Part shown: positions 13,727 to 51,087 of the stretch, one piece after another | Numbering within the stretch: position 1 is the first letter of the stretch | How the letters are laid out: every line of letters starts with the position of its first letter | DNA from: Kiritimatiellia bacterium | GTDB taxonomy: Bacteria > Verrucomicrobiota > Kiritimatiellia > RFP12 > JAAYLN01 | NCBI GenBank assembly: GCA_017962605.1 | Contig: JAGCUY010000176.1 | Location: forward strand, 1-59,827 | Length of the DNA: 59,827 nucleotides | Direction of reading: 5' to 3' | Notes under the pieces: model-generated | Seen by the model: the letters and a program-made list of their open reading frames with translations, nothing else | Told to the model about the DNA's origin: nothing | Databases searched by the model: none | Translations under genes and position numbers: made by a program

Positions 13727-13756
13727 ATTTTACCTGACGACAAGGGTGAATGGCAA
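13727..13756 (-). promoter_or_regulatory. Putative internal promoter of the GH39-like gene
   Basis: TTGCCA (13751-13756), an 18-bp spacer and TAAAAT (13727-13732) lie just before the ATG at 13720. The element overlaps the last codons and stop of the upstream LamG gene, so it is an internal, leaderless-type promoter if used. Confidence 0.4.
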
Positions 13757-16132: not shown

Positions 16133-16203
16133 CTTGACAGTCCTTGTTTGGGTTGAAGATGCGACTATTATCCCAAAAACGACTGTCTTGTGCGTCCCAA
16201 ATG

Positions 16204-27644: not shown

Positions 27645-30254
27645 CTATCGGAAAATGAGGCAGAACCCGCCGGCCGACTTGAGTTCCAGGCTCTTGCCGT
27701 CGTCTGCGACAGCCGTTGTGTAGAGGATGTCGCCAAGGGTCAGAGACAATGCGCTCGGGCGACCCGTGACGCCAGCCGTGGAAGAGGCTATGGTGTAGAT
27801 CGCCGGCTGGCCTTCGACGGTCGTCGGCAGTTCGACATCCTGGTCAAGCGCGAAAATCGAACCCGACGCAAATGTCAGGGCGTTTGTAGCGGTCAGCACA
27901 TTGCCGTTGGCGATGTCGCTCGCCTTTGCGCCGAGCATGCCGGTAATCGTCGCCGTGACCTTAGAGTCGATGGTCAGCGGCCCCGAAACGTCCTTCAACG
28001 TGACGGCGATGTTCGGGTTGTCGGCGTTGATGCGCCCGGACGTGCCGGTACTCGCCGCAATGCATTCAATCGAAGCGATTCCGCTGTAGAAGCTTGCGCG
28101 ATAGGGAGCAAGCGTGCCGCCGCGTTGAAGCACGACCTTCAGCGTGTCCGCAGGCGAAATCGCAATGTCGTTGTCGGTCGTCGAGAGCTTCGCGCGGTCG
28201 AGGACGATCGTCCCCGCGTTCTGGATCGAGCGGCCAAGACGGAACCGGTAGTTCGCCTGTTTGTCGGTGTCGCACGTGAGAGTCAGGGTGTGCGACTTCA
28301 TGTTCAGCGTCGCGTAGGAGAAAAGGCCATGCTGGCTGGCGGTTCCTCTCGAGGAAATCACGGTGTCGTCTTCAAGAGCGATCGAGCAGTCGTACAGGAC
28401 CTGCCAGCTCCACAAAGTATCGAAAGCCAGCGCTCCGGGAATCGCGAGTCCGTGGTAGCCCGCACCCTCGAGTTGAATCGTGCGCTTGTTGAGGATGATC
28501 GTATTGTCCGCTTCCGGCGTAAGCAGAAGCGATGCGCCGCTGTGGACGTAGATGCGGTTGGCGGAGTCCGAATCCTTGCCGAGGTCGCCGTTTCTCGACG
28601 CCTGCATCACGCCCTCGTAGATCTGGAAGGAGCCGACGAGATCGCGGATGGTGTCGGACGCGACAAGCGTGCCGCTGCCGCGTTTTTCGAGGCTCGCGCC
28701 TGTCGGCCATGTGTCAAACGACGCGGCGGCAATCGCGTCATCGAGCGTGGCAGTCGCGCCGTACTCGACGCGGATGATGACGTTGGTGGGATCCACGGCT
28801 GGATCCGTCGTCACGCTCACGCCACCGTTGGAATAGTGAAGCTTCGCGAGCCCCGCTTCGAGTTCGATCGTGACCTTGTCCTCGTCCGGCATCGTGACGG
28901 GCGCGTCAAAATACCAGTCGCCGACTGGGAACCAGAGGGTCGAACCCTCAGCGAGATTCGCGACGCCCGCGTTGAATTTTGCGGCGTTCCCGCTCTGGTT
29001 CGCCTCGCCGGGTTCGATGTCCCAGTCGGTCACGGAAATGACGCCCTCCGGCTTGTTCGCAGACCATTTCAGGAGCAGCTTGTCCGTGTCGCTCGTCTTG
29101 TCCAGCGACCAGTGCGATGCGTAAACATCCGTGTTGGTGATGGAGAGTGTTCCCGCGTAGGCAATTCCCTTCCCGGTCGCGGCGCTCGCCGCCGTATAGA
29201 CCGTCGAGCCGCCCACAAGCTTCGACCAGTCATCGACCTCGAAGACGACCGCCGACGAAGACGTGTTGCCGAATTTCAGTCCGGCGGACGAACTGTTGAA
29301 GCAATGCCCGGCCAGCAAATCGTCGGCATGGGCGGTGTATGTCTTGTTGACCTGCAAAACTGCGGAGGCGCCCGTTCCGACCGTCGGCGACCCGCCGACC
29401 CCTGTAACACCCAGACCCCAGTTTGGTATCGTGATGGTGGCGCCATAATCCGCAATATAGTTAGAGAAGCATCCGAGGAACATACCGTCCGCCGTTCCAG
29501 ATGTAAACTTTGATTTTGCATCCATCTTCAGATACGGCACGGTCGGATTGCAGGTATGGGTCTCGTCCTTATTGCTTACGGTCTTTGCCGTCGATGTGAG
29601 AGAGATATTCTTTAGCTCGAACCCTGCCGCATTGTTGATCGTGGCCTTGTATCGGAACCTGAACTCTGGCGTCCCGCTCGCAACATCACCGACAAGCGTC
29701 AGGACATGGTTGTTCATGTTGAACGTCGTGTTGCTGAAGGGGCCCCATTGTCCCGTCACCGTTGCCGCGATCGCCGCGTCTGACGGAAGGTTGAAGGTAA
29801 TGTAGTTAAACACCTGATAACTCTTCTGCCCCGCGAGGACGATCGCTCCCTTGTAGCCTTCCGCACCCGTGCCGGACAACTTGATCGTCCGGCTCTTGAG
29901 CATGACAGGATCGCCTGTCGTTGACACGGTCACGAGAAGCGTCGCTCCGTCCTCCACGGTGATTTGATTCGTAAACCCGAGCTGCCCTGGAGCCGTGATC
30001 TCCAAAACGCCTTCCTTGATCGTTACCGCAAGCTTGAATCCATCTGCGAAGACCTGATCGGAAGTCAGCTTGCCCAGGCCTTTCTTGACGAGCGTGTCGC
30101 CATCAGAAAGGGTTTGGCCAGTTGCCACCAGCGCTGCTGAAAGCGTCGTATCGGTATCAACCGTCAACTCCACCGTTGCGGCTAAGAGCGCGGACGGGGC
30201 GAAAATGGCGGCAGTCGCGGCGAGCGCGGCCAGTAGGATGGATGTCTTCTTCAT
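27645..30254 (-). CDS. Large secreted beta-solenoid/autotransporter-like protein
   Basis: The 869-aa protein has a signal peptide (MKKTSILLAALAATAAIFAP) and long beta-strand-rich repeats like autotransporter-associated passenger regions. It is an internal duplication: SRTIKLSGTGAEGYKGAIVL...NNHVLTLVGD in the first half matches KRTIQLEGAGYHGLAIPGAL...KSHTLTLTCD in the second. No catalytic residues or autotransporter barrel are seen. It ends GGFCLIFR-stop, matching the shared hydrophobic tail. The promoter carries direct repeats shared with the operon at 58.3 kb. A cell-surface adhesion or scaffold role is inference. Confidence 0.75.
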   Translation of the reverse strand: MKKTSILLAALAATAAIFAPSALLAATVELTVDTDTTLSAALVATGQTLSDGDTLVKKGLGKLTSDQVFADGFKLAVTIKEGVLEITAPGQLGFTNQITVEDGATLLVTVSTTGDPVMLKSRTIKLSGTGAEGYKGAIVLAGQKSYQVFNYITFNLPSDAAIAATVTGQWGPFSNTTFNMNNHVLTLVGDVASGTPEFRFRYKATINNAAGFELKNISLTSTAKTVSNKDETHTCNPTVPYLKMDAKSKFTSGTADGMFLGCFSNYIADYGATITIPNWGLGVTGVGGSPTVGTGASAVLQVNKTYTAHADDLLAGHCFNSSSAGLKFGNTSSSAVVFEVDDWSKLVGGSTVYTAASAATGKGIAYAGTLSITNTDVYASHWSLDKTSDTDKLLLKWSANKPEGVISVTDWDIEPGEANQSGNAAKFNAGVANLAEGSTLWFPVGDWYFDAPVTMPDEDKVTIELEAGLAKLHYSNGGVSVTTDPAVDPTNVIIRVEYGATATLDDAIAAASFDTWPTGASLEKRGSGTLVASDTIRDLVGSFQIYEGVMQASRNGDLGKDSDSANRIYVHSGASLLLTPEADNTIILNKRTIQLEGAGYHGLAIPGALAFDTLWSWQVLYDCSIALEDDTVISSRGTASQHGLFSYATLNMKSHTLTLTCDTDKQANYRFRLGRSIQNAGTIVLDRAKLSTTDNDIAISPADTLKVVLQRGGTLAPYRASFYSGIASIECIAASTGTSGRINADNPNIAVTLKDVSGPLTIDSKVTATITGMLGAKASDIANGNVLTATNALTFASGSIFALDQDVELPTTVEGQPAIYTIASSTAGVTGRPSALSLTLGDILYTTAVADDGKSLELKSAGGFCLIFR

Positions 30255-33812: not shown

Positions 33813-33853
33813 CGCTACTGCATGAAGAAGAGAACCCCGTTGAAGTCATTGTT
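33813..33853 (-). repeat. C-terminal tail cassette, divergent copy, out of frame
   Basis: On the minus strand this segment reads NNDFNGVLFFMQ-stop, similar in DNA and peptide to the tails ending the genes at 40341 and 49595. It lies just past the stop of the coiled-coil gene in the next frame. Removing one base of the GGGG run at 33860-33863 would join the two. Confidence 0.6.
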
Positions 33854-34649
33854 GGCGTTGGGGTGGTGGCGGAATCGGGCCAAAGCCTCCGGGGCCGCCA
33901 GGGGTCACGCCGGAGCGGTATATGGCGTCAAAAAGCGGGCTCATGGAATCGGGCGAGATGCCGAACATCATGTTATATCCCTCCCCTCGCTCCCGCCAGT
34001 CTTCGGGCAAGACTTCGTCGAATCCGGCGTATGCATCCAATGTGGCCCCGCTGAACGCGTGGAGCATCTGCAGTTGCAGCTCGAAGTCGAGGGGGACCCC
34101 GTCGTCGATCGCGGCCGCAAACTCCTCCGCGATTTCACGGACACGCCCGTTGAGCGCGTCCAGTTCAACTTCGAGGGAGGCGCATTGCGCGTCATCCAAG
34201 CCTGTCTTCTCGACAAAATCGGCCAGCTGGGCGGCGAAATGCTCCTTTATGCGCGCCCGGAATTCCTTGCGGCGCTCCTCGCGCTCCTCCTCGCTGGCGT
34301 TTTCCCATTCACGGCGGCGGGCCTCGTGCTCCTCGCGGCGTTCTCGGTCGATGGCGTCGGCGCGGGCCTTTGCGCGCTCCTCAATGGTCTTCTCCAGTTC
34401 GTCGGGGTCGACGGCCTGCCCCTGCGCGGACGGTTCCTGCGCCGGTGCGGCCTGCCGAATGACTGCCGGTGCCGGCCGCCGTGCCCTTGGTGGCGGCGGC
34501 GCGGCCTTGGCCTTGGCAAGTTCCGCGTCGGCGCGAACGAGCTTCTCCCGCAGGGCGCGGTTGTCAATGGCCAATGTTACGGCCGCTGCGGCGGCGATGA
34601 CGGCGACGCATGCAAAAATCCACACCGCTGGAGTCTTCAGTGTTTTCAT
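33846..34649 (-). CDS. Membrane-anchored coiled-coil protein with a frameshifted C-terminal tail
   Basis: The 267-aa protein has one N-terminal membrane segment (VWIFACVAVIAAAAAVTLAI), a Pro/Ala/Arg linker and a highly charged coiled coil (about residues 75-150, rich in ERREEHEARRREWENASEEE). A helical C-terminal domain follows, and the frame ends in a Pro-rich segment (GFGPIPPPPQRQQ). One base fewer in the C4/G4 run at 33860-33863 would change the end to PPPNANNDFNGVLFFMQ, the shared tail. I take the ATG at 34649; another lies ten codons upstream. The gene is 63 nt after the acetylxylan esterase gene. Function unknown; a periplasmic spacer or anchor is a guess. Confidence 0.6.
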   Translation of the reverse strand: MKTLKTPAVWIFACVAVIAAAAAVTLAIDNRALREKLVRADAELAKAKAAPPPPRARRPAPAVIRQAAPAQEPSAQGQAVDPDELEKTIEERAKARADAIDRERREEHEARRREWENASEEEREERRKEFRARIKEHFAAQLADFVEKTGLDDAQCASLEVELDALNGRVREIAEEFAAAIDDGVPLDFELQLQMLHAFSGATLDAYAGFDEVLPEDWRERGEGYNMMFGISPDSMSPLFDAIYRSGVTPGGPGGFGPIPPPPQRQQ

Positions 34650-34712
34650 GTTTCCAGATTTCCCAATTGATTTGTCCATTTAGGCGTTGCGACGCGCTTT
34701 ACGCAGGGGCAA

Positions 34713-37031
34713 CTAATTGACCATGAAAAGCGTCCCCGAGAAGGGCACGACGCCGTTGGAGAGTTCCCCATGCAGACCGCCGATTTCAATCGCCCCGCTC
34801 GTGGCGACCTTGCCGAGGACGCGTTTGCCTGCATCAGTCGGGACGAGCCATTTGTCGCCGGTGGCGGCGTCCGATAGCGTCGCGAAGGTTGCGCCGCCGT
34901 CGTCGCTGACGGAAAGGCGGACGCGCGCCACGGGGGAGGTGAAGTCGCTTTCCATGCGAATGGTGTAGGTCGTCCCCGGCGCGGGGGCCATGCCGCCGGA
35001 AAGCGTCTTCCAGGCGCCGCCTACGTAGGCCATCCACACCGAGGGACCATCCATGATGGCGTTAGTCACGGCGGCGACGGCGGCAATGGATTCCGTAAAC
35101 GAGGCGGTCGGGGGCGGCGGAAGGTCGATGTTGAGCTGCGGGTAGGTCACGACGGCCTCCGCGCGGACGAACTTGTTGCTGCCCTCTTCAAGGGCGCTGT
35201 CGGAGAGGGAGAAGGCCATGTCGTCGCCGGTCGAGACGAAGGCCGTCGCGTTTGTCGCGGGGGGCGTCGTCGTCCAGGCGCCGTTCACCTCAATGGCGCC
35301 GCCTTGCCCGTCGGGCGCCGTGCGGAACCAGGAGCCGTCGGCGTTCCAGCCGCCCGCGAAGAATTTCCCCGAGCCAATCACGTCCCCGCCCTCCGTCACG
35401 ACGTATGAGTAGTTCATGCCAGGGGTTGTCGCGACAGTAATGACGGCCACGCCCTGCGCGTCGGCCGTTCCCGTCTCCGTGACGCCCAGCGGCGTGCCGT
35501 CCACCGACGCAAGGGAAAGCGAGACCTCCGTTCCCGCCGGGAGACCGGTCACGGTGACAAGATGGTTTGTCCATTTTTGTCCAGGCGCGTCAAAGACATC
35601 GACGTTAGAGAAGTTGCCTGCGCCCGCCGCCTTGGAAATGCGGTAAGTCTGGTTGGGGTCTGGCGGGACGTAGCCGTGCGTGGAGCCCTGCACGAGCTTC
35701 GCCGTGGCCTGGCACCTCATGAGGTAGAAGCTCAGCAGCACCCCGCGCGCCGGGCAGGTCGTGTCGCCCAGTCCCAGTCGTGTCAGGCTGGCCTTGCATG
35801 TTTCGGGGAGGCGCCGCGCGTGAAGCGCCGCGTCAAAGTAGTAGGCCCCTGGCACGTTGGGGATGCCCCATGTGTTGGAGAGGAACGGACCTGTCGTGTT
35901 GTGGTAGTTGCCGATGTCGCAGCCCCAGGTGGCCGAGGGCTTGATTTGGGAAATGCCCTCGACGAGGCCGCCCGCCCACATCGTCTGAAGCCCGCCCTGG
36001 CTGCCGCCTTCCGCGATGACGTTCTTGCCGTCCCACTCATTGCGCGACTTGAGGTACTCGAATGCGCGCATGACGCGCATCGCCATGAAGTAGAAATAGG
36101 TGTTCGTCGGGTTGTCGTAGTCCGATGGCGCGAGGCCGTAGCCGTAGCGCGTCGGTGTGGTGTAGTTTGGGTCGATGGGGCGATCCGTCTTGTTGATGGA
36201 ATCGTTGAAGTCCTTGTAATACTGGTTGCCCTGTCCGACCAGATCGTAGCCGTGCGCGTTGACTGCGAAGCGAATCTGCCCGGAAACGCCCCATGTCGGA
36301 GCCTTTGGCGCAGCCGTGATGCACCCATAGCCGTCGAAGTTCGCCTGGACGGGAAGACCGCCCGCTGGCACGCTCTTGGGAATCATGAGCCAGCCGGTGA
36401 CGGGCTGCGGCCCATAGCATGGGATCTTGGCGGCGTAGATGGTGAAGTCGTTTTTGGTTCCGTTTGGCGTGACGTCCACCAGTTCCACGTTCGAGTCGTC
36501 GAACGGGACTGTGGCGAGCTTCGCCTTCGCCTCGGCCCAGAAGGCATCGAAGTCGGCCGGCTCGACGGTCGAGAGGCGCATCTTGCGCGTATCGGCTCCG
36601 GCGCCGCCCTCGAAGGTGATGTTGGCGGCTTTGCCGTCACTGCCTGTATAGGAAAACTTCCCGTAGTTTGATTTGGCAAGATAAGCCTCGACGCGCACGA
36701 AGCCGGGAACCGCGAGGCTGGTTTCCATTGAGAATCCCTGCGCCAGGGAGATGTCGTTCGTGCCCATGGTCTTGACGCCATCGTCGCCCGTGCGCGTCCA
36801 GATGACGTGGAGCTGCTGCTCGTTCGCCACCTCCGCTGGAAGTTCCGTCACGCCGTCGAGGCGGAAGTCGAAGCGGATGGTTTCGCCGACCTCGTAGTCG
36901 ATGGGGTTTTCCTTGTCCGTGCTGGCCTTGAGCGTGAGATTGGTAATGTTGTCGCCTAGCGCCGCTGAGGCTGCGAAAGCCGCGAGCGCGATGACGGACA
37001 GCGAGATGGATTTGAATCGTGCTGTATTCAT
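34713..37031 (-). CDS. Secreted acetylxylan esterase (AXE1-type) with C-terminal accessory modules
   Basis: The 772-aa protein has a signal peptide, an N-terminal beta-sandwich (about residues 28-145) and an alpha/beta-hydrolase domain (about 150-465). The triad is Ser344 in EGGSQGGLQT, Asp423 in LGLGDTTCPARG and His452 in VQGSTHGYVPP, as in AXE1/cephalosporin-C deacetylases. The C-terminal 300 residues hold accessory modules also recognisable at the end of the GH74-like protein at 40341-43652. The protein ends FSGTLFMVN-stop. I chose the ATG at 37031 because AGGGAA precedes it and it begins the signal peptide; an upstream TTG is less likely. It would remove acetyl groups from xylan or xyloglucan. 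Confidence 0.85.
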   Translation of the reverse strand: MNTARFKSISLSVIALAAFAASAALGDNITNLTLKASTDKENPIDYEVGETIRFDFRLDGVTELPAEVANEQQLHVIWTRTGDDGVKTMGTNDISLAQGFSMETSLAVPGFVRVEAYLAKSNYGKFSYTGSDGKAANITFEGGAGADTRKMRLSTVEPADFDAFWAEAKAKLATVPFDDSNVELVDVTPNGTKNDFTIYAAKIPCYGPQPVTGWLMIPKSVPAGGLPVQANFDGYGCITAAPKAPTWGVSGQIRFAVNAHGYDLVGQGNQYYKDFNDSINKTDRPIDPNYTTPTRYGYGLAPSDYDNPTNTYFYFMAMRVMRAFEYLKSRNEWDGKNVIAEGGSQGGLQTMWAGGLVEGISQIKPSATWGCDIGNYHNTTGPFLSNTWGIPNVPGAYYFDAALHARRLPETCKASLTRLGLGDTTCPARGVLLSFYLMRCQATAKLVQGSTHGYVPPDPNQTYRISKAAGAGNFSNVDVFDAPGQKWTNHLVTVTGLPAGTEVSLSLASVDGTPLGVTETGTADAQGVAVITVATTPGMNYSYVVTEGGDVIGSGKFFAGGWNADGSWFRTAPDGQGGAIEVNGAWTTTPPATNATAFVSTGDDMAFSLSDSALEEGSNKFVRAEAVVTYPQLNIDLPPPPTASFTESIAAVAAVTNAIMDGPSVWMAYVGGAWKTLSGGMAPAPGTTYTIRMESDFTSPVARVRLSVSDDGGATFATLSDAATGDKWLVPTDAGKRVLGKVATSGAIEIGGLHGELSNGVVPFSGTLFMVN

Positions 37032-37052
37032 GGGTTCCCTAAAGGGTTTCAA

Positions 37053-40340: not shown

Positions 40341-43300
40341 CTATTGGATGTAGAACAGGGTTCCGTGCCAGTCGTTGTAGGTTACGAAGATGTGACCGTT
40401 GTTGACGATGGTGCGCCCGGCGGTGAGCGTGGCGGGGGCGACGACGTTGGTGAGGAGCGTCACCGTGCCTCCGCGCCCGGCGGCGCGTAGGGCGTCCGCG
40501 ATGGAGTCGTAGCGGACGCCGTTCACCTCGGCGACGGCCTTGTCGATGGTGTATCCGGCGAAGCCGCCGACCCGCTTGCCCTGGAAATCAACCCGGCCCG
40601 CGATCCTGGCGCCGGAGCCTGGCGCCGCGAACCATTCGCGGCCCGTGGCGTCGTGCAGGCGCGTCCATTCGCCGTCGCGGAAGACGAGGTAGGAGACGAG
40701 CGGTTGTGCGGCTGTCGTGTCCAGTTCAAGGGCGGCCTGGACGAAGTCGCCCTCGAAGGGGAGTGTCACGCGGTCTTCAAGGGGTTTCCAGACCGTGGCC
40801 CCGCTCTCGTCCACCAGTCCGTGCAGGATGACGTCGAAGCCGCCGGCGGCCACCGCCGCTAGCCCCGCGCGGCTGCCGTTCGCGATGGCGTATTGGAGAT
40901 TCGTCGCCAGCGCGTTCGTGCTGGCGTATCCGCTCCCGTAGAGCATGATTTCAGCGCGGGCGAGGGAGCCGGTGCAGTCCTGGAGCGCGGCGAAGGCCGC
41001 GCCTCCCTCCCCGAGGTCATAAAGTCCCGCCTTGGCGGCGGGAGCCGTCCCGCCGACCCAGGCGCCGCCGGAGACGGCGCCAGTCGCGGGGTCGGCGCTG
41101 AACCAGTCCGCCGCGCTCCCCAGACGCAGGGGTGACGGCAACGGCCCGCCCACAATCTCCACTCCGTTCGTGTCGAAGAGAGAGAATGAAAGGGTGTAGT
41201 CGATTCCGCCGCCCAGGACGGCGTCGGGCACCGTCGTCGTCGTGTCAAACGAGTATTCTCCCGACCCGGCCCAGTCCTGCTCCGCCGTGCCGAGAACGGC
41301 GCCGTCGGCGCCGAGGACCGTCATGCGGATCTTCGCCCCGGCCGGTATGACGTTCGCCGGCGCGACGCTGGTGATCGCGACGGTGGCCGTGCCGTTCGTC
41401 CAGGCGAAACCGTGGGTGAAGGCTCCGGACATCGCCAGCGACGGCTCCAGCTGGCGCATCCAGACGCCGCTCCCGCGCGTGAGGGCGAAGAGGCGGCCGC
41501 GGTCCACCGCAACGCAGCGCTTGACGCCAGACGGGTAGTCGAGGCCGCCCTCCAGGTCGGAGAATGTCCGGCCGCCGTCGCGCGAGACGATGATGGCGTT
41601 CTTGTTAGCCGCGACGGCAAGCCCCGGCACATGCGCGTCGAACGCGACGCAGACGCTGCTTCGCCAGCCCGTGCTGGGCGCGTTGGTGGTGATTAGGGTG
41701 TGCCAATTACGGCCGCCGTCGGTCGATTCCAGGAGCCTGTCGCCATACGCGGCGAGGAAACGTCCCGGCGCAAACGGGTCGGCGGCGATGGTGCGATAGC
41801 ATGTTGCGTTTGTGATGGAGGTCGTGGGAACCCAGCCGGGGGTCTCGCCGCCTCGTTCCAGCGTGTAGCATGTGCCGCCGTAGGTCGAGAGGACGGCCGA
41901 GCCGTCGGGCGAGAAGACCAGCTGCGGTCCCCAACCCGCCTCGCCGCCACCTGCGAACTCCGATGGCTTGAAGAGATTCGTACCGTCGGATGGGAGACCA
42001 TCGGAAGCGCGCGTAAAGCTTTCGCCCTGGTCGGCGGAGACCCACACGCCGCCGCCATCCGGTCCGCTTGGGCCGGCGACGCAGAGATACACCTCGTCGT
42101 TCGTCGGATCGACGGCGACGGTGTAGGCCGAGATTTCCTGCTCGGGATAGGTGCCCGGGGAGCCTTCGCGGAAGGCGGGCAGCCCCGCTTTCGCTGGCAC
42201 CTCCCATGTGCGGCCGCCGTCGCGCGTCCGCAGGAACTTGATGCCGGATTTCCCGCCGATGCAATAGGCAAGATTGGTTGTCTGGGCGCTCCAGGAAATC
42301 GAATTGGCGTAGGCGGAATATTTGGTGTAAATGGAATGGAATGACTTGCCCCCGTCGTGTGAGGCGCTGAGCCCGAGGTCGGCGTAGCCGTAGAGGATGT
42401 TGGTGCTGGAATGGGGGTCGCAGGCGACCATGAAGGGCACGAGCTGGCTTATGCCGTTCACGCGGCTTGTCCAGGTCTTGCCTGCGTCCAGCGTCTCCCA
42501 GATCTCGAACCAGTCGGTCGCCAGCCAGTGGTTGCGGTCGCGCGGGTCGATGTTGATCGTGCCAAGCGCCCAGAACTCGCCGTTCTTGGCGCGCGGCGCG
42601 AGATGGTGCTCGGCGACGGGGTCGCCGAGCGAGACTGATACGCGCGTCACCTTGCTCCACGTCGTATCATTTTTGCCGCGCCTGAAGATTTCTCCTTTCG
42701 CGTTGCCGACGAGCCAGAAGTTCGGCCCCGCCGCAAGCGCCTGGTAGCGCTTGGCGTCGGTGTATCCCGGCTCGGAGGCGCTGTCCGACGCGATGGACAG
42801 CCCCGATTCGAAAGCGTACCACGTCGCGCCGTAGTCATCGGAGGCGCGGACATGGCGGTTGGCGAACAGCCCGACGATGCGCGACGAGCCGGCGATTTGG
42901 GCCGTCTCCGTCGGCGACTCGGTGCTGGAGAGCGTCGTCCACGTCGTGCCTCCGTTGTCGGAGCGGAAGAAGCCCTTCCCGCGCTCATGCGATGTGGCGT
43001 TCTGGTCCTGCCGCCCCGGTTTCATCAGTCCGGGGGCGCAGACGTAGATTCGCGACGGGTTGGATGGGTCGATGCGGATGTCGGTGATCAGCATTTGGGT
43101 CAGGCCGAGGTTGGTCCACGTCTTGCCGTTGTCGTTGGAACGGAAGACGCCATCCCAGTCCTCGCCGCAGTAAATGATGTCGGGGTTGGTGGGGTGCCGC
43201 GCCATGCACTGCCCCATCCAGCGGGTGTTGCCGTCGCCGTAGAATTTTGCGGTGAGGGTCCGCCGGAAAGTCCGGCCGCCGTCGGTTGTCACATACACCC

Positions 43301-43652
43301 CGGCGGGCTTGTCGAAGCTGTCGCCGGCCGCAATGAGAAAGGTGTTGGCGTCGCGCGGGTCAACTGAAAGGGCTCGCACGTGGTCGGCCCAGCGGGCGCG
43401 TTGGTCAATCGGCATCAGCGCGTGGAGCGGCGTCCACGAGCGGCCGCCGTCGTCAGAGCGGTAGGGGCCGCCGACATCGACGTAGGCGTACCAGCGCGAG
43501 GGGTTCGAAGGCGCGATGGCGACGTTCTGGACATACCCGCCGCCGAAGACCGGCAGGACGCTCCAGGACTCGTCGGCGCAAGCGGTCGCGGCGAACAGCG
43601 CCAGCGCGAGAGCCGCGATGCGGCGGGATTTGACGTTAGGGGAAATATTCAT
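40341..43652 (-). CDS. Secreted GH74-like propeller protein with accessory modules and C-terminal tail
   Basis: The 1103-aa protein has a signal peptide and the same double-propeller Asp-box array as its paralogue (about residues 28-735, opening WSVLPVFGGGYVQNVAIAPS). About 365 extra residues follow. These include a module also present in the acetylxylan esterase (about 870-1040) and a 'VNGVRYDSIADAL...GGTVTLLTN' repeat module (about 1043-1080). The chain ends NDWHGTLFYIQ-stop. The DNA of the tail is identical over 59 nt to that of the gene at 49595. Xyloglucan is the usual GH74 substrate; that activity is inferred. The gene follows the AAA/PD-(D/E)XK gene. Confidence 0.8.
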   Translation of the reverse strand: MNISPNVKSRRIAALALALFAATACADESWSVLPVFGGGYVQNVAIAPSNPSRWYAYVDVGGPYRSDDGGRSWTPLHALMPIDQRARWADHVRALSVDPRDANTFLIAAGDSFDKPAGVYVTTDGGRTFRRTLTAKFYGDGNTRWMGQCMARHPTNPDIIYCGEDWDGVFRSNDNGKTWTNLGLTQMLITDIRIDPSNPSRIYVCAPGLMKPGRQDQNATSHERGKGFFRSDNGGTTWTTLSSTESPTETAQIAGSSRIVGLFANRHVRASDDYGATWYAFESGLSIASDSASEPGYTDAKRYQALAAGPNFWLVGNAKGEIFRRGKNDTTWSKVTRVSVSLGDPVAEHHLAPRAKNGEFWALGTINIDPRDRNHWLATDWFEIWETLDAGKTWTSRVNGISQLVPFMVACDPHSSTNILYGYADLGLSASHDGGKSFHSIYTKYSAYANSISWSAQTTNLAYCIGGKSGIKFLRTRDGGRTWEVPAKAGLPAFREGSPGTYPEQEISAYTVAVDPTNDEVYLCVAGPSGPDGGGVWVSADQGESFTRASDGLPSDGTNLFKPSEFAGGGEAGWGPQLVFSPDGSAVLSTYGGTCYTLERGGETPGWVPTTSITNATCYRTIAADPFAPGRFLAAYGDRLLESTDGGRNWHTLITTNAPSTGWRSSVCVAFDAHVPGLAVAANKNAIIVSRDGGRTFSDLEGGLDYPSGVKRCVAVDRGRLFALTRGSGVWMRQLEPSLAMSGAFTHGFAWTNGTATVAITSVAPANVIPAGAKIRMTVLGADGAVLGTAEQDWAGSGEYSFDTTTTVPDAVLGGGIDYTLSFSLFDTNGVEIVGGPLPSPLRLGSAADWFSADPATGAVSGGAWVGGTAPAAKAGLYDLGEGGAAFAALQDCTGSLARAEIMLYGSGYASTNALATNLQYAIANGSRAGLAAVAAGGFDVILHGLVDESGATVWKPLEDRVTLPFEGDFVQAALELDTTAAQPLVSYLVFRDGEWTRLHDATGREWFAAPGSGARIAGRVDFQGKRVGGFAGYTIDKAVAEVNGVRYDSIADALRAAGRGGTVTLLTNVVAPATLTAGRTIVNNGHIFVTYNDWHGTLFYIQ
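40352..40410 (-). repeat. C-terminal tail cassette, copy A (59 nt identical to copy B)
   Basis: This block encodes the last residues of the GH74-like protein. It is identical base for base to 49606-49664, which ends the broken esterase gene 9.2 kb away. Identity falls off sharply on the upstream (5') side. Confidence 0.9.
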
Positions 43653-43710
43653 TGTTCACAAATCCTCATTGTCCATCAACATCTATGTCAACAAGTTGTT
43701 TTGACAGGAT

Positions 43711-45471
43711 TCACAGGATTATCTGCTCCTCGGCGATTTGCTCACAGCGGAAGAGTTCGCCGCCTTTGAATTGGAATACAATCTGGTGAAGCGTCGTGCC
43801 ACGGGCGAGGGACGGGAGGGACTTGTCGGCGCGGTAGCGCGCGAGCTGTTGCAGCGCCTCCTGATACTGTGCATCAAGCCGCTCCTGCGGCGCATCGGCC
43901 TTGTCGTATTTGAGTTCGATCAGGTAGCTGTGCCTCACGTCGCCGAAGTGGTGGCGCTCCGGGAAAAGGCAGAAGTCGCAGAAGCCGCGAGAGAGCTCCA
44001 TCTCCGGCTCCATGAGGTAGAAGTCCAGATGGCCGAACTCGCACTGCATGTAGCCCTGAATGCGGGATTCGCCCTGGATGCCGCCGCGAACCGGGGTCGT
44101 CTCGGCGAAGTCCGCAGCCAGTCGCGCCAGGAAAGGCCTCCACTCGCCACGGTAGGCAAAGCCAGAGGCGAGCGTCCCCAGTTCCGTCCAATCTGGGACG
44201 CGGGTGCGGACGTAGTGCTCGCGCAGGTAATCAAAGACCTGCTCCCTCACGCAGACGTTCGGGATGCGGAACCAGTCGAGCCCTTCGCGGCGCCCCTTCA
44301 TCGAGATGATGCCGTAATAGTAGAAAAGCGACTTGAAGTTCTCAGGATTCGGGATGCTGTCGGCCGGGAAGGATGGCTTCAAATCGAACCAGATTTCGCC
44401 GTCGGCGGCCAGCCGTTCTGTGACGGGCAGGGAGTCCTGGACGTTCTGCGGGTCGATGCGGCGCTGGATGTCGGCGATGACCCTGAGCTTGGCGTAGTCC
44501 GTGGCAATGTTGGTGTCCACCCAGTTTCGAGGGGCCTTCCCTGTCTTGACAAGCGCATTGAGGAAGTAGAGCGCCATGTCGCTGTTGAAGACGCTTTCCT
44601 CGCCGCGCTTGTCCTCGGCGAAGCAGTAGCCGTCGTACCATGGCTTGATGGCCGCGACCCACTCCGCCGGTTCGCCGGTCTGGTATTTGCCCACGCCTTT
44701 GAAATCGGTGTAGAGGCGGAGGCATTCCTCCTCGGAGAAGCCCAGCATCGCGTTGAAGTCCGCGTCCTGCGAGATGTTCAAGGCGATGTTGAAGCCGCTT
44801 GTGAGGTCGTCCATCGTCACGGGCGAGACGCCCGTCATGTAGATGCGGTCGAAGCTGCCCTTGAACATCTTGAACCAGGCCCGGTAAAAGCCCTGCCCGT
44901 GCGTGATGTCGCGGTAGCTGTTGTTTTCCTCCGCCTGGAGCATCGTGTTGGTGAAGTTGTCGTATTCGTCCAGCATCAGGTAGAGGTGGAGGTCCAGACG
45001 CTGGGCCGCCGAGACGATCTTCGTCAGCTTTTCAGAGGCGGTGTCGGCCCTGGCGAATTGCGCGACTAGGTCCTTGCCGTAGGCGTCGCCGTATTTTATA
45101 ATGAAGTCGTCCAGGCAAGCGCCGATATAGCTTTCAAAACGCTGCTGAAGCGTCTGTTTGGCGCTCGTTCCGACCTTCGAGAAGTCCATGTAGAGTACTT
45201 GGAAGCGGTTCCTGTTCTCCGTTGGGTTTCTGGCGATTTTAAGACCGCCGAAGAGCGCGTCGAAATTATTCTTCTCCGCGATGTCATAGTAGCAGCGGAG
45301 CAGGCTGGCCATGAGCGACTTGCCGAAGCGCCGCGGCCGAACGAATAAAAGGAAGGACCCGGCGCGCTCCAAAAGCGGGATGTAGCCGGTCTTGTCAATG
45401 TAGTAATAGCCTTCGCGCCGGATGCGCTTGAAGTCGCAGACACCGTATGGAATTTTGAGATTGCCACTCAT
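43711..45471 (-). CDS. AAA-ATPase-like protein with PD-(D/E)XK C-terminus
   Basis: The 586-aa protein matches the predicted AAA-ATPase family with a DUF1703/PD-(D/E)XK_9 tail. The start is LKIPYGVCDFKRIRREGYYY, the Walker A-like block is RPRRFGKSL (about residues 45-53), and LYLMLDEYDNF resembles Walker B. The nuclease-like segment near the C-terminus includes FGDVRHSYLIELKYDKAD. These genes are common and often multicopy in gut and sediment anaerobes; function unknown. I chose the ATG at 45471 as the conserved family start. A TATGCT box and a small hairpin lie upstream. The last codons (IIL-stop) come from a tandem repeat. It interrupts an otherwise continuous glycan locus. Confidence 0.88.
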   Translation of the reverse strand: MSGNLKIPYGVCDFKRIRREGYYYIDKTGYIPLLERAGSFLLFVRPRRFGKSLMASLLRCYYDIAEKNNFDALFGGLKIARNPTENRNRFQVLYMDFSKVGTSAKQTLQQRFESYIGACLDDFIIKYGDAYGKDLVAQFARADTASEKLTKIVSAAQRLDLHLYLMLDEYDNFTNTMLQAEENNSYRDITHGQGFYRAWFKMFKGSFDRIYMTGVSPVTMDDLTSGFNIALNISQDADFNAMLGFSEEECLRLYTDFKGVGKYQTGEPAEWVAAIKPWYDGYCFAEDKRGEESVFNSDMALYFLNALVKTGKAPRNWVDTNIATDYAKLRVIADIQRRIDPQNVQDSLPVTERLAADGEIWFDLKPSFPADSIPNPENFKSLFYYYGIISMKGRREGLDWFRIPNVCVREQVFDYLREHYVRTRVPDWTELGTLASGFAYRGEWRPFLARLAADFAETTPVRGGIQGESRIQGYMQCEFGHLDFYLMEPEMELSRGFCDFCLFPERHHFGDVRHSYLIELKYDKADAPQERLDAQYQEALQQLARYRADKSLPSLARGTTLHQIVFQFKGGELFRCEQIAEEQIIL

Positions 45472-45552
45472 ACTGGCCTCTTGTCGTTTGTGACGACAAG
45501 CATACCACATCGCCGCGCAGGGCGCAAGCCACAAAAAACTTTTTCAAAAGCT

Positions 45553-45582
45553 GGCGCGGGAGTTCACAAAAACTCCCGCGCC
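45553..45582 (-). terminator. Rho-independent terminator after the 45593 DUF2341-LamG gene
   Basis: An 11-bp perfect stem (GGCGCGGGAGT / ACTCCCGCGCC) with an 8-nt loop lies 10 nt past the stop codon. On the minus strand T-rich tracts (CTTTTGAAAAAGTTTTTT) follow. It would separate the LamG gene from the AAA gene. Confidence 0.75.
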
Positions 45583-45592
45583 ATGTCTGCGG

Positions 45593-47821
45593 CTACTGGA
45601 AGAAGATGACTGAGCCGGTGACGTTGTCACCGACGGTGCCGTAGCGTGTGAACGTAGCGTTGGCCGCGATGGTGTCGTAGGTCGCCTTCACCCAAGCATC
45701 CGAACGCGCCACCTTCGAGATACGGACTTCGTCGATCTTGCCGGGGAAGACCGTGCTTTTGCTGTAGTGTTCGTTTCCGATGGTCAGTGGCGCACTCGCA
45801 TTGTGAAGGCCGACACCCGTGACGTTACTGCCGGAAGACTTCTCGACAACGGATGTGCCATTAATAAATCCAGTTCGAATCCCCGTGCTGCCGTCCCAGC
45901 GGAAACTCTGGTGCGCCCACTCGTTCAGCTGGGGGTTTGCACCGGACCCTGGCCATACATCGCAATACCCATTTGCAGAAGTATATAAGACGCCGGTGAG
46001 TTGTCCACTAGTTTTCCGCTGATACAACTCGTAGGGAACCGACCAAGGACTCGGGGCCATTTTACTTATTAGGAAGGCATTGGCAGATGGATAGTCGGTT
46101 TGGAATGTCCAAGCTTCAAGGGTGATGCCTGGAAAGCCGTCATGGATGGTGCCGCCATCTGCGGCTTGGAAGCAACCGGTCATAACGCCGTCGCGTCCCA
46201 GCTCGGCTGCGGTGCCAACGATGCCATCAACGCCGCACAAGATGCCGTCGCGATAGGACGAAGGGGCGGTGACGTTCTTGCCGGTTGCGGTGGAGTCCTT
46301 CTGTGTGAAGGTTCCTTCGGCGGCGTTCATGTGCCACACGCCAACGTAGTTTGCGTCCCACACCTCTGTGGGATCGACTGCCGGCGCGAGGTTCCAGCCG
46401 TAGTAGCCCCTGATTCGAGTGTCCTTCGTGAGCGTTGGAATCTTGACCCAAATCAGTGATTCGCCATCCGGGTTCCAGACCTCGACTTCGCAGGGAAGGA
46501 GGGTGCCGTTCGCGTCGGCGAAGCGAAGGTCGGCGCCCCCCTCCTTCACGCAGTCGGCGTAGTGGAAGCCTGGGATGCCCGCTTCGGAGACCTTCACCAG
46601 CACGGGGAAGTCATCCAGCGTAGCGCCCTCTTCGACGCCGGGGAATGCGACCGAGAACTTGTGTGCGTATTTCGTCCAGTCATTCGGCACTTCAGAAACG
46701 GCGAAATCGTCGTTCGCGATGGTGTCGTGCGTCGCCGCAACCCAGTCATCGGAGCGGGCGACGTTGGAGACGCGGACTTCATCGATTTTGCCGGGGAACA
46801 CCATTTGTTGGTTTTGGAAAAAGTTCCCGACATAGAGAGATCCTCCAACAACAATGCCCGTTCCCTTATAATTGTTGTGAGCCACTAGTTCATGGACATT
46901 GTCTCCGTTTAAAAAGCCAGTTGTAAGTCCTGTGTCGCCGCGCCAGCGGAAAACCTGGTGTGTCCACTCGTTAAGTTGGACACCAGCGTGGGAGCTTCCT
47001 TGCCAAAAGCCAACAGCTGCCTGGGTGCCCACGCTGTTGGTTTTATAGATGTATGCGGCCATTTTCCCATTGGTGTCTTTCAGTTGCTGGAAATAATAGG
47101 CAGACTGGTTCACATTCGGGTCCTGTTTGTTGAAGATATAGCGATGTTCGGAAACATAGGCGGTTTGGTATGTCCACGTCTCCAGCGTTATGGCGCTTAA
47201 ACCGTCAAGGATACCTTTGGTGTCTGGCACGGAGTACCCTCCGGTCTTGACTCCTCCTTGTCCCAACTCGACAGCATAGCCAACCGCACCTTCTACCCTG
47301 CACTCCATGCCGTTCCGATACGAGGAGCTCGTAGAAAGATTGTGGCCGTTTATGGTGGAGTCTATTTGCCCATACGTAAGCGCGGACGCGTTCATGTGCC
47401 ATACGGCGAGATAGCCGTTGGTCCAGACATCGGTGGGTGTCACTTCGGGGGCGGCGGCGTTGCCGTAGCGGACGGTGATGGTCGTGTGATTGTTGAGCTC
47501 TGGGACGCTGACCCAGACGAGGGACTCGCCGTCGGGGTTCCAGGTGTCGACCTCGCTGGGGAGGAGGTTGCCGCCGGCGTCGAAGAAGCGCACGTCGCCG
47601 CCGCCCGTGAGTTCGCACTTGGAGTAGTCGAAGTTGTTGCGCGCCTTTGAGAGGCGGATGAGGGCGGGGAAGTTCGTCAGCGTCGTCGAGCCTTGGTAGC
47701 CGGCGAACTTGACGTTGAACTCCTTCGCGTATGACGGCTCGCCGTCGGCGAAGGTGGCGCGCGGGGCGCAGAGGATGGCCGCGGCGATTGCCGAGGCGAG
47801 GATGAACGTACGTTTTCTCAT
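45593..47821 (-). CDS. Secreted protein with two DUF2341-LamG units
   Basis: The 742-aa protein is built like that at 21814-24066: signal peptide (MRKRTFILASAIAAAILCAP), then two DUF2341 (FPALIRLSKARNNFDYSKCE; FPVLVKVSEAGIPGFHYADC) plus LamG units that end in IDEVRVSNVARSDDW and IDEVRISKVARSDAW. The linker AVWHMNASALTYG/GVWHMNAAEGTFT replaces the VWHLGE form. No catalytic residues are seen. It ends VTGSVIFFQ-stop. AAGGAGA lies 5 nt before the ATG, and a TTGACA-N17-AATAAT promoter drives it. A terminator follows, so it is largely its own unit. Glycan binding or display at the surface is inference. Confidence 0.87.
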   Translation of the reverse strand: MRKRTFILASAIAAAILCAPRATFADGEPSYAKEFNVKFAGYQGSTTLTNFPALIRLSKARNNFDYSKCELTGGGDVRFFDAGGNLLPSEVDTWNPDGESLVWVSVPELNNHTTITVRYGNAAAPEVTPTDVWTNGYLAVWHMNASALTYGQIDSTINGHNLSTSSSYRNGMECRVEGAVGYAVELGQGGVKTGGYSVPDTKGILDGLSAITLETWTYQTAYVSEHRYIFNKQDPNVNQSAYYFQQLKDTNGKMAAYIYKTNSVGTQAAVGFWQGSSHAGVQLNEWTHQVFRWRGDTGLTTGFLNGDNVHELVAHNNYKGTGIVVGGSLYVGNFFQNQQMVFPGKIDEVRVSNVARSDDWVAATHDTIANDDFAVSEVPNDWTKYAHKFSVAFPGVEEGATLDDFPVLVKVSEAGIPGFHYADCVKEGGADLRFADANGTLLPCEVEVWNPDGESLIWVKIPTLTKDTRIRGYYGWNLAPAVDPTEVWDANYVGVWHMNAAEGTFTQKDSTATGKNVTAPSSYRDGILCGVDGIVGTAAELGRDGVMTGCFQAADGGTIHDGFPGITLEAWTFQTDYPSANAFLISKMAPSPWSVPYELYQRKTSGQLTGVLYTSANGYCDVWPGSGANPQLNEWAHQSFRWDGSTGIRTGFINGTSVVEKSSGSNVTGVGLHNASAPLTIGNEHYSKSTVFPGKIDEVRISKVARSDAWVKATYDTIAANATFTRYGTVGDNVTGSVIFFQ

Positions 47822-47856
47822 TGATGTCTCCTTAGAAGGGTTTATAACAATGCTAA

Positions 47857-47885
47857 ATTATTCCAAAACTTTTCAGTCTTGTCAA
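47857..47885 (-). promoter_or_regulatory. Promoter of the 45593 gene, proximal copy
   Basis: TTGACA (47880-47885), a 17-bp spacer and AATAAT (47857-47862) make the best sigma-70 match in the window. A near-identical 66-bp copy lies just upstream (47940-48005). Confidence 0.75.
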
Positions 47886-48063
47886 GAACAGGAGGGAACA
47901 GGGAACAGGGAACAGGGAACAGGGAACAGGGAACAGGGAACGGGTTTATAACAATGCTAAATTGTGCCAAAACTTTTCAGACTTGTCAAGAACTGGAGGG
48001 AACAGGAAGAATGTGAAAATGTGAAAGTGTTGCCAATCCCAATGTTGCCAATGACCAATGCGG
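47886..48063. repeat. GGGAACA heptamer array with a duplicated promoter segment
   Basis: GGGAACA repeats six times at about 47896-47941. A second copy of the promoter segment (TTGACA at 47984-47989, with CACAAT in place of AATAAT) follows. After it come AATGTGA units, TTGCCAATG-type units and GGGGCTA/GGGACTA units. Nearly every unit is 7 nt. No gene is present. Confidence 0.85.
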
Positions 48064-48118
48064 GAATGGGGGCTAGGGACTAGGGGCTAGGGTTGGACTC
48101 CGTTCCGGCCGCCGCGCC

Positions 48119-48323
48119 TAACGCAAGTCGCTTCGCGACACGCAAGGGTTACGCTCGCATCGATGTGGCTACGACGGGCTACGCCCTACGCCACAATCGA
48201 TTCTCGCGTGGAGGTTGAAGGAACTTGCGGCAAAAGCGATTGTGGCGTAGCCGCCACGGGCGGCGTCGTAGCCACATCGGTTTTGACGCAGCTTTTGCGT
48301 CCGGCCACAGGCCGGTTGCGTTA
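48119..48323. repeat. Nested inverted repeat, about 200 bp
   Basis: The arm 48161-48199 (CGATGTGGCTACGAC...) pairs with 48237-48279 (...GTCGTAGCCACATCG). An outer pair TAACGCAA/TTGCGTTA lies at 48119-48126 and 48316-48323. No ORF fits it. Heptamer arrays flank both sides. It could be a miniature element or fold into a long RNA hairpin. Confidence 0.8.
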
Positions 48324-48325
48324 AT

Positions 48326-48445
48326 GGGGGAACAGGGAACAGGGAGCAGGGAACGTGGAACGGGGAATGGGAAATGTGAAAATGTGAAAATGTGGAAACA
48401 GCCAATGCCAATGAAGGGGCTAGGGACTAGGGGCTAGGGCCGGAC
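48326..48445. repeat. Drifting heptamer array (GGGAACA to AAATGTG to GGGGCTA)
   Basis: Units change stepwise: GGGAACA, GGGAGCA, GGGAACG, TGGAACG, GGGAATG, GGAAATG, TGAAAATG. GGGGCTA/GGGACTA units then end near the esterase stop. The closing words GGGGCTAGGGACTAGGGG are the same as those at 48069-48086 left of the inverted repeat. Confidence 0.8.
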
Positions 48446-49591
48446 TCCGATCCGGCCGCATCGCTCCTTGAATCTGGCGAGCGCTTCGACAATCCAGGTG
48501 CCGCTGCCGCCTTCCTCAAAATGCCCTGTGATTTCGCCGTGGTTCGTTTGCATGAAAAGCCGTGCCTCGTTCGGAACTCCCGCCCTTACGAGGCGATCAA
48601 CGAGGTCCGTAAAGTCCGCCACTGGGATGATGCCGTCGGAAGAGTTCCTGCGCGACTTTGGATCTGTGCAGGCGTAGGCGAGAATCGCCGGGCAGGACTC
48701 TGAATTCACGAGATGCACCGGCATCCATTTGCGGATGGCCGCCGCCGCCTTCCTCCGGCCCATTCGCGTCAAATCCTCGCCCACCAGCCAGGAAAGAAGC
48801 CTCTTCATCCGCCGCAACGACGGTATAAACCAGGCCGCCGGGGAAAAAACGACGCGGAAGAGCCGTCCCTTGGTGAGGTCTGACGGTCCCACGATGGAGA
48901 CCACGCACCTGACGCGCAGGTCATGGCGGAGCGCGACATCGGGAATCCTTGCGCCGTCCTGGTCCCATGCGTAGCACATCGCAAGGTGTCCGCCCGCCGA
49001 TTCCCCTCCGATGACGATCCTGTCTGCGGGCAGTCCGAGCCTTGGGAGTTCGGCCTTGAGGTAGGTGACCATGTCGTCGATGTCCGCGAGCATTCCGGCA
49101 AAAGTCGCACCTTCGCGCGGCGAGGCGTCCGGATGCGCGAAGATGTCATTCTGAAGCTGGTAGTCCATGGAGATGGTGAAATAGCCCGTGGCGGCAATGC
49201 GCCGGAGGAGTTCGTGGCTGGAGACATCCTTGTCAAATGGTTGTGACCAGCTCCCGCCGTGCAGGTACACGAACGTCGGCATTTCCGCGCGCGCCTCGGC
49301 GGAGGCGAAGAGCTCCTTGTCGAAGCGGAGGTCGAAGAACGTGCCGGAACGGTGCCGGCCGTATCCGCTCCCTGTGTATCCCTCACCTTCGTCTGGCGCG
49401 TCGCCGCGCGTTGAATAGGAGAGGTCGCGGTAGAAACAGATGTTTTTCCCGAGCGCGGACTCGGTCACGCCGCAGGGGAGCGACAGTTGGGCGGCAAGAT
49501 CAGTTGGACAGGGCGCTGGCGGCGCCGCGGCGGCTTTTACCGCCGCGACGGCAAGGGCGGTGAGCATAAGAATGCGAGAGCCAATTCCCAT
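48434..49591 (-). CDS. Secreted alpha/beta hydrolase (esterase/lipase, BD-FAE-like)
   Basis: The 385-aa protein has an N-terminal signal peptide (IGSRILMLTALAVAAVKAAA) and a serine-hydrolase fold. The oxyanion-hole motif is VYLHGGSWSQ (about residues 108-117) and the nucleophile is Ser198 in IGGESAGGHLA. The aspartate is probably in IIPVADFTDLVDRL and the histidine in QTNHGEITGH. This resembles carbohydrate or feruloyl/acetyl esterases of the BD-FAE group. It starts 3 nt after the stop of the broken acetylxylan esterase, last in the operon. De-esterification of hemicellulose is the likely role. Confidence 0.82.
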   Translation of the reverse strand: MGIGSRILMLTALAVAAVKAAAAPPAPCPTDLAAQLSLPCGVTESALGKNICFYRDLSYSTRGDAPDEGEGYTGSGYGRHRSGTFFDLRFDKELFASAEARAEMPTFVYLHGGSWSQPFDKDVSSHELLRRIAATGYFTISMDYQLQNDIFAHPDASPREGATFAGMLADIDDMVTYLKAELPRLGLPADRIVIGGESAGGHLAMCYAWDQDGARIPDVALRHDLRVRCVVSIVGPSDLTKGRLFRVVFSPAAWFIPSLRRMKRLLSWLVGEDLTRMGRRKAAAAIRKWMPVHLVNSESCPAILAYACTDPKSRRNSSDGIIPVADFTDLVDRLVRAGVPNEARLFMQTNHGEITGHFEEGGSGTWIVEALARFKERCGRIGVRP

Positions 49592-49594
49592 TGC

Positions 49595-51060
49595 CTATTG
49601 CATGAAGAACAGGGTTCCGTGCCAGTCGTTGTAGGTTACGAAGATGTGACCGTTGTTGACGATGCCCGTGCCATCGGACGCCGTGAAATCCCGCGAGACG
49701 TTGCTCGAGTCCTTCAGCGGCAATGCGCCCTCGCCAAGGTGCCAGACACCCGCGTAGTTCTCGTCCCAGACGCTCTCCAGCGCGTTCCAGAAAGCGGCGA
49801 TGCCGCGCGGCGGGCAGGTGTAGTCGCCGAGGCCCGCCCGTGAGATGGTGACGCGGCAGTTCGCCGGAATGCGCTTTGCGAGAAACGCGCACTCGTAGTA
49901 GCCGAGCGACTCGGTCCAGGGGACATACCAGTTGTTGGTGGGGAACTTGCCTTCAAGACGCGCCTTGTCGGAAAACCAGTCGCAGCCCCAGGGGATGTCC
50001 GCCCAGGCGTCGGTGACGCCCTCGCCGCATGCCGCCGCCCAGATTGTCTGCATGCCGCCTTGGCTGCCGCCGCTCGCGATCAGGTCCTTGCCGTTCCACC
50101 CTTCCAGCGTCTTGAGATACTGCAGTGCGCGCTTGACACGCAGGAACATGCCGTTGAAGTAGGCGACTTCCGGATCCTCGTTCTGCTTCGCATTGAAGGC
50201 GTAGGTGGCGCCGTGCGAGCTGATCTCCCACTTCAGCGCCTTCCAGTCGGCCTCCGTGGCGCCAAACTCGCGCAGCTTCATCCCGTGGGCGTTGATGTTC
50301 AGGACGATTTCATTGTCCCGCGCCGCCGATGGCGGCCCCTGCATGGACACACCGTAGCCAGCCGTCTCAAGTCGGGCGGGGAAGCGCTTTCCTTCGTCGA
50401 CGGCCTTGGGAACGGTTAGGTAGCCCGTGACGGGGCGGAGTCCGGCGCAGTCGATGCGCACGGCCCAGCGGCGCGTCGTGTCGGGACGCGGGCTCTCGAT
50501 TTCAACGAGGTCGGCCTTGACCGGCACCAGGTCGAGGCGCTTGAATTGCCTATCCCAGAACTCGTCGAAGTCGGCTGGCTTTTCAGGAAGTGTCCTGATT
50601 TGATCGATGTCCACGCCCGCCCCGCCGTCGAAAAAGACCTTCTTGTTGGACTTCTCGTATTTGTTCATCGCCTTGCGGCCTTCGGGCGTGGTGGCGTCGC
50701 CGACAAAGGTCTTCTCGAAGCGCTCTCCGTCCGGACCGAGGACGTAAACCTCCAGGCGGACAAATCCCGGCTGGTCGAGGCTTGTCCTGTAAACGAACGG
50801 CTTTTCGGTGAATGTCGGAGTTCCTTGTCGGACTTCCCGCCCTCGTCAGAGTAACGCCACTCCAGCTGGTAGGTGTCGGGCGGGATTGGGCCGTCGAGGT
50901 CCATGGGCGTCACCGTGAAGACGATTTCCTCGCCGGCGTGGTAGGAGACAGGGTCTTTGTCCGTGACGCCCCGAAGCCAGGCGTTGTCCAAGACCCCTGC
51001 CGTGGCAGACGAAATGGAAAAAGCAAGGAAAATCGCGGTGATGAACTTTGGTTTTGGCAT
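49595..51060 (-). pseudogene. Acetylxylan esterase, frameshifted and fused to a LamG-type tail
   Basis: The gene starts at the ATG at 51060 (MPKPKFITAIFLAFSISSAT, signal peptide). The first 80 or so codons are in one frame and the rest in another; a one-base deletion near 50815-50825 breaks it. The hydrolase part has the nucleophile motif IASGGSQGGMQT and the aspartate motif AGLGDYTCPPRG. It stops before the catalytic histidine and continues as VWDENYAGVWHLGEGALPLK, a DUF2341/LamG linker, then NDWHGTLFFMQ-stop. So the 3' end is a graft, and even with the frame repaired the triad would be incomplete. Upstream DNA around the start consists of short repeats. Confidence 0.75.
49606..49664 (-). 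repeat. C-terminal tail cassette, copy B
   Basis: Identical over 59 nt to 40352-40410. Upstream of the block the two genes have nothing in common, so this is a moved or converted segment rather than a paralogous gene end. Confidence 0.9.
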
Positions 51061-51087
51061 TGGCAACACTTTCACATTGGCAACAAT

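Follow-up and report, generated by a model that had tools for sequence, protein, structure and literature searches.

Our data indicated that the 59 nucleotides shared by the ends of two unrelated genes are, by themselves, a minor recombination scar, and that the block comes from the 3' end of the C-terminal module of a GH74-like gene, where it encodes a tag that probably acts as a C-terminal recognition strand for exported proteins, the second copy being a scar on an esterase gene. As far as the sequences tell, the DNA copy is a single event on a pseudogene, and what recurs is a short peptide kept at the protein level on unrelated exported proteins. The window (contig C88, the whole stretch of 59,827 nt that was analyzed) belongs to a genome of 231 contigs and 4.18 Mb, apparently metagenome-assembled, which is referred to here as G000.

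The tag is a hexapeptide of alternating hydrophobic residues with R, K, Q, or N in the last position, and it ends long exported proteins of G000 (e.g., TTIIMR, TTVIMR, TVMTMR, FVIVVR, FTLVVR, FCLIFR, SVIFFQ, TLFMVN, and TLFYIQ). In the 0.59 Mb sampled, 25 of 283 long open reading frames (ORFs) ended in the motif, whereas 0.68 were expected from the internal motif frequency of the same proteins; the motif is short and was partly defined by eye on these very data, but was fixed there before being applied to other genomes. In that fixed form, it was found at 18 of 208 ends in G022, a genome from another family of the same order (0.34 expected), at 3 of 130 in the sister genome G001 (0.26 expected), and at 1 of 74 in G012 (0.12 expected), and at none in the outgroup genomes G008 (0/84) and G117 (0/49). 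The DNA pattern for TT[IV]IMR followed by a stop codon occurred eight times in G000 and always closed, in frame, an ORF of 507 aa or more; the reversed-pattern control gave no hit, and none of 288 other genomes of the phylum had more than one occurrence. A second pattern, F[TVIAM][ILV][IV][IV]R before a stop codon, occurred eight times in G000 and seven times in G022, and stood at control level in most other genomes of the class. Signal-peptide-like N-termini went together with the tag (23/142 versus 4/159, P = 3e-5), linking it to exported proteins. Beyond G000, GTLFLLQ or GTLFLIQ was found at protein ends as well: one further protein bears it in G018, G022, and G050, and the bearer in G098 is a different protein. 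The tag is separable from the domains around it, since the AXE1 esterase beginning at 34713 carries TLFMVN right after its beta-domains and has no NGVRY repeat. Conservation is at the level of protein: the codons of tags spelling TTIIMR differ between genes, and when the last 69 nt of 33 tag-ending genes were compared in all pairs, the pair of the shared block reached 97%, while every other pair remained at or below 57%, against a maximum of 62% in untagged control ends. No description of the tag was found in the literature on Kiritimatiellae and Verrucomicrobiota, although this covers open-licence papers only and is weak evidence of novelty.

From this distribution, we infer that the tag is a putative C-terminal strand for export or sorting. 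Once the protein has been exported by Sec, this beta-strand would be recognized by a component of the outer membrane that sorts or anchors proteins, or by a processing protease, and such recognition may allow enzymes to reach or stay on the cell surface. AlphaFold2 models of the C-terminal module (four sequences) were of low confidence, with a mean pLDDT of 51 and about 34 for the tail, and gave the strand no structural support. A close parallel is the type IX secretion CTD of Bacteroidota, likewise carried at the C-terminus of many exported enzymes and adhesins that are unrelated to one another. Its information is held in the final strands: the last 22 residues are enough, and the loss of the last few leaves the cargo stranded in the periplasm (PMC4804311). 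Unlike that signal, only about six residues recur here, with no conserved beta-sandwich domain. The type IX CTD was rejected by its domain criterion, a shared Ig-like domain of 70-100 aa, because no NCBIfam sorting-domain match was obtained in the 10 proteins scanned and the tag stands behind unrelated domains. SprA (TIGR04189) was detected in 0 of 21 genomes, yet the 14 control genomes were silent too. PEP-CTERM/exosortase is similar in that a short C-terminal sorting signal is placed on many proteins, and an exosortase (PF09721) was present in 25 of 25 genomes (G000 and 24 relatives), with two in G000 on contigs C25 and C177. Despite this exosortase, the tag was not assigned to PEP-CTERM, as it has no PEP motif, transmembrane helix, or basic cluster. 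Canonical PEP-CTERM ends were seen on other genes of G000 (L047:972-1679 and 1725-2327), and only there in about 0.63 Mb sampled. The beta-signal of BAM shares with the tag a terminal strand of alternating hydrophobics; it was rejected because the tag ends in R, K, Q, or N rather than in an aromatic residue, and its hosts are enzyme, LamG, or beta-repeat proteins in which Pfam scans found no barrel domain.

At their N-terminus, several tagged ORFs encode regions 2 and 4 of an ECF sigma factor, then a conserved membrane helix (KPGGKAVILALLLCGLTALGA) and a long exported part. All 10 of the fusion ORFs whose ends lie within the data carry the tag, two of them (L172 and L232) being near-identical orthologues. 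Tagged genomes have many members of this fusion family, with 19 matches in G000, 14 in G022, and 11 in each of G001 and G018; G037 likewise has a large number, and no match was found in G008 or G012. In five of five such ORFs of G000, an internal Shine-Dalgarno sequence (AAGGAGAA) and ATG stand before a new signal peptide, an arrangement from which the exported part may also be translated by itself; no internal start was seen in the fusion ORFs of G001, G018, and G022. The in-frame linkers of the fusion ORFs, and also L192:4609-5793, contain NLSTFQPFNFST-type phrases, which look like translated repetitive intergenic DNA. The arrangement resembles that of ECF sigma factors with membrane and exported extensions at the C-terminus (IutY and the ECF48, ECF52, and ECF53 groups), in which the sigma factor is joined to a membrane helix and an exported sensor part (PMC8999054). 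Unlike in these groups, the exported part here is large and adhesin- or enzyme-like and bears the C-terminal tag, and the family has up to 19 matches per genome.

Since none of the sigma-factor fusions examined lacks the tag, surface export and gene regulation may be linked. It is conceivable, as a tentative extension of the recognition-strand reading, that some Kiritimatiellae families sort proteins by a hitherto undescribed C-terminal strand of six residues, with R, K, Q, or N in the last position, which is read at the outer membrane, and that the same tag caps fusions of ECF sigma factor, membrane helix, and surface protein, such that its arrival or engagement at the surface could report to transcription. 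In this gut lineage of polysaccharide degraders, which has been little studied, a large share of the exported proteins bear the tag; should the tag prove to be a sorting signal, a surface-display route would be defined, the surface proteome would become predictable from sequence, and the receptor could be sought by phylogenetic profiling. Among the other explanations, an unlikely one is that periplasmic proteases of the tail-specific (Prc-like) or PDZ type recognize the tag, whose role would then be regulated cleavage of exported and sigma-fusion proteins, not sorting. Two points would suit such a role: in 10 of 10 ORFs that begin with an ECF sigma factor and a membrane helix, the tag stands at the exported end, and the ECF IutY, which has a fused membrane extension, is set free by Prc and RseP (PMC8999054). 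Against it, the majority of tagged proteins have no sigma domain and are simply secreted enzymes or adhesin-like proteins. Prc, moreover, prefers non-polar tails, from which a terminal R, K, Q, or N differs.

The shared block itself is observed on the minus strand at 40352-40410 and 49606-49664, where 59 nt are identical, and the homology runs beyond these to 70 nt (40341-40410 versus 49595-49664; 68/70 matching), including the stop codons (Table 1). The earlier note had described this identity between two unrelated genes, with nothing shared upstream of it, and both points held when the flanks were compared directly, with no similarity between the two genes on either side of the 70-nt block, be it upstream or past the stop codon. 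The two mismatches, Y/F and I/M, fall in the last codons, within 11 nt of the stop; both are non-synonymous, and there are no silent differences. The genome-wide DNA search for the block that the same note had called for returned two copies only (E values of 1.7e-30 and 8.8e-28), and the 19-nt core, with up to 3 mismatches allowed, occurred twice in the window against 0.01 expected by chance. Among 368 sampled gene ends of G000, this pair showed the strongest sharing and was the sole strong one between non-homologous genes. The claim that the 3' end alone was copied recently is likewise supported, as the two non-homologous genes are 97% identical in DNA across the 70 nt, whereas the neighboring GH74-like paralogues reach only about 70-85%. 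These paralogues stand in tandem (37053-39242 and 40341-43652), and the module and tag are present in the second only.

Table 1. Coordinates of the shared block, of tagged genes in the window, and of tagged sigma-factor fusion ORFs elsewhere in the data
Feature	Position	Strand	Remarks
70-nt block, copy 1	40341..40410	-	Codes IVNNGHIFVTYNDWHGTLFYIQ and stop; 59 nt exact at 40352-40410; end of GH74-like gene
70-nt block, copy 2	49595..49664	-	Codes IVNNGHIFVTYNDWHGTLFFMQ and stop; 59 nt exact at 49606-49664; end of broken esterase gene
GH74-like (sortilin/BNR beta-propeller) secreted protein, 1103 aa	40341..43652	-	Two beta-domains, NGVRY-type repeat, tag TLFYIQ
AXE1-type acetyl xylan esterase body	49776..50668	-	Stops at residue ~298, before conserved WVQGSxHGY segment
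LamG-domain start remnant, ~36 codons	49665..49775	-	VWDENYAGVWHLGEG...SDGTG; between esterase and tail
AXE1 esterase with both GH74-like-type beta-domains, without NGVRY repeat	34713..37052	-	Tag TLFMVN directly after domains
Orphan tail FNGVLFFMQ and stop	33815..33904	-	Out of frame with end of gene 33846-34679
DUF2341/LamG secreted protein	45593..47821	-	Tag SVIFFQ
Secreted beta-rich protein	27645..30254	-	Tag FCLIFR
DUF2341/LamG secreted protein	21814..24066	-	Tag FVIVVR
LamG secreted protein	13730..16240	-	Tag FTLVVR
Sigma factor-membrane helix-exported fusion ORFs, tagged	L051:5978-9790; L053:153-2402; L055:5095-9090 and 14726-17701; L188:11667-14486		
Further fusion ORFs of the same type, tagged	L079, L172, L220, L232, L233		

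The direction of the copying was indicated by the surroundings of the two copies. In the GH74-like protein, the C-terminal region consists of two beta-domains, an NGVRYxSxADALRAAGRGGTVTLL repeat, and then the tail. Alignment with the GH74-like protein revealed the full region also on a GH5 cellulase and an NAGPA-type phosphodiester glycosidase in G022, which end in TLFLLQ and TCVILQ, respectively. Because these two proteins carry the whole module and the esterase gene only its last 22 codons, the block is, on sequence grounds, native to the GH74-like gene as the 3' end of its C-terminal module, and the esterase copy is derived. In named genomes, the nearest relatives of the GH74-like protein belong to Verrucomicrobia and Kiritimatiellae that have not been cultured (one from a sheep omasum), which suggests that the window comes from an organism of the Kiritimatiellae type, probably living in the gut.

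The esterase gene (49595-50668) had been called broken in the earlier note, and this description was confirmed. In 68 of 115 relatives, the homology with it reaches residue ~298 and no further; the relatives go on with WVQGSxHGYVPP, whereas the gene in the window passes into a LamG fragment of about 36 residues and then the tail. The histidine of the lost WVQGSxHGY segment is presumably the catalytic one of AXE1 esterases. A second lesion lies at the other end of the gene, as the signal-peptide part (MPKPKFITAIFLAFSISSATAG...; 50668-51075) is in another frame than the body. The truncation, the LamG remnant, the frame-shifted signal peptide, and the retention of only the last 22 codons of the module together mark the esterase copy as derived and as lying on a pseudogene, where it looks like a recombination scar. 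No source of the LamG fragment was found in the genome, the closest DNA being 82% identical over just 56 nt (22532-22587). Recent ectopic copying, or duplication and deletion, would have left the last 22 codons behind the LamG fragment in an esterase gene that was decaying. As the upstream junction lacks homology, gene conversion of the ordinary kind is unlikely, and we infer a recombination route of duplication then deletion, or of template switching, as a better fit than gene conversion. That the three segments of the broken esterase share one reading frame, for which the chance is 1/9, hints weakly at present or past expression of the hybrid.

The second copy and the hybrid esterase might instead have arisen during assembly, as a chimeric metagenome join across a repeat of about 59 nt, a length near common assembler k-mers. 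This is quite improbable, even though the genome is of metagenome type with its 231 contigs, the esterase, LamG fragment, and tail fall within one ORF, and there is one frameshift in the esterase gene and another behind 33846-34679. The two copies differ at two positions and have different flanks on both sides, and a simple cross-over could swap flanks but would not make a second copy.

Returning to the tag as a recognition strand, one objection is that the hexapeptides are no signal at all and just form the final strand in various beta-domains. Many hosts are indeed beta-rich (LamG, beta-repeat), and the alternation of residues is strand-like; nevertheless, the excess at termini over expectation in both G000 (25 against 0.68) and G022 (18 against 0.34), its complete lack in G008 and G117, and the position of the tag after unrelated domains, at times directly behind a linker, leave this objection little credence. 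Hardly any remains for the claim of the earlier note that the tail behaves as a movable cassette, that is, DNA actively inserted at gene ends by gene conversion or site-specific recombination: although the 97% identity over 70 nt ends exactly at the stop codon of otherwise non-homologous genes and several Q/N-type tails cluster in the window, there is a single such unrelated-gene pair in 368 sampled gene ends, the other tagged ends are unrelated in DNA across the 33 genes compared, the block forms no stable attC-type hairpin (z-scores of -0.32 to 0.30), and none of the 20 window ORFs scanned has a recombinase, transposase, or reverse transcriptase domain. An integron gene cassette (59-base element, attC) was rejected for want of an inverted-repeat hairpin and because the block is coding sequence. 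Regarding the features of diversity-generating retroelements, the copies show two differences only, one of them at an A, and the same scan of 20 ORFs detected no reverse transcriptase domain.

A more diverged third version of the tail had also been reported for the window. It spans 33815-33857 and is real as a tail, with NDFNGVLFFMQ matching NDWHGTLFFMQ at 8 of 11 residues (about 26/36 nt when read directly), but the gene that precedes it, at 33846-34679, is in another frame. This gene encodes a 277-aa protein with a membrane-type N-terminus and the end PPPPQRQQ, just behind which FNGVLFFMQ and a stop codon follow in another frame, suggesting that a frameshift near the C-rich run separates the gene and the tag. 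Elsewhere in the window, an AAA-ATPase-like/PDDEXK_9 gene (43711-45534) is located amid the polysaccharide-degradation genes, and the intergenic stretch from the LamG gene to the next gene (47838-48464) contains GGGAACA heptamer arrays, duplicated 65-nt units, and a 37-nt inverted repeat.
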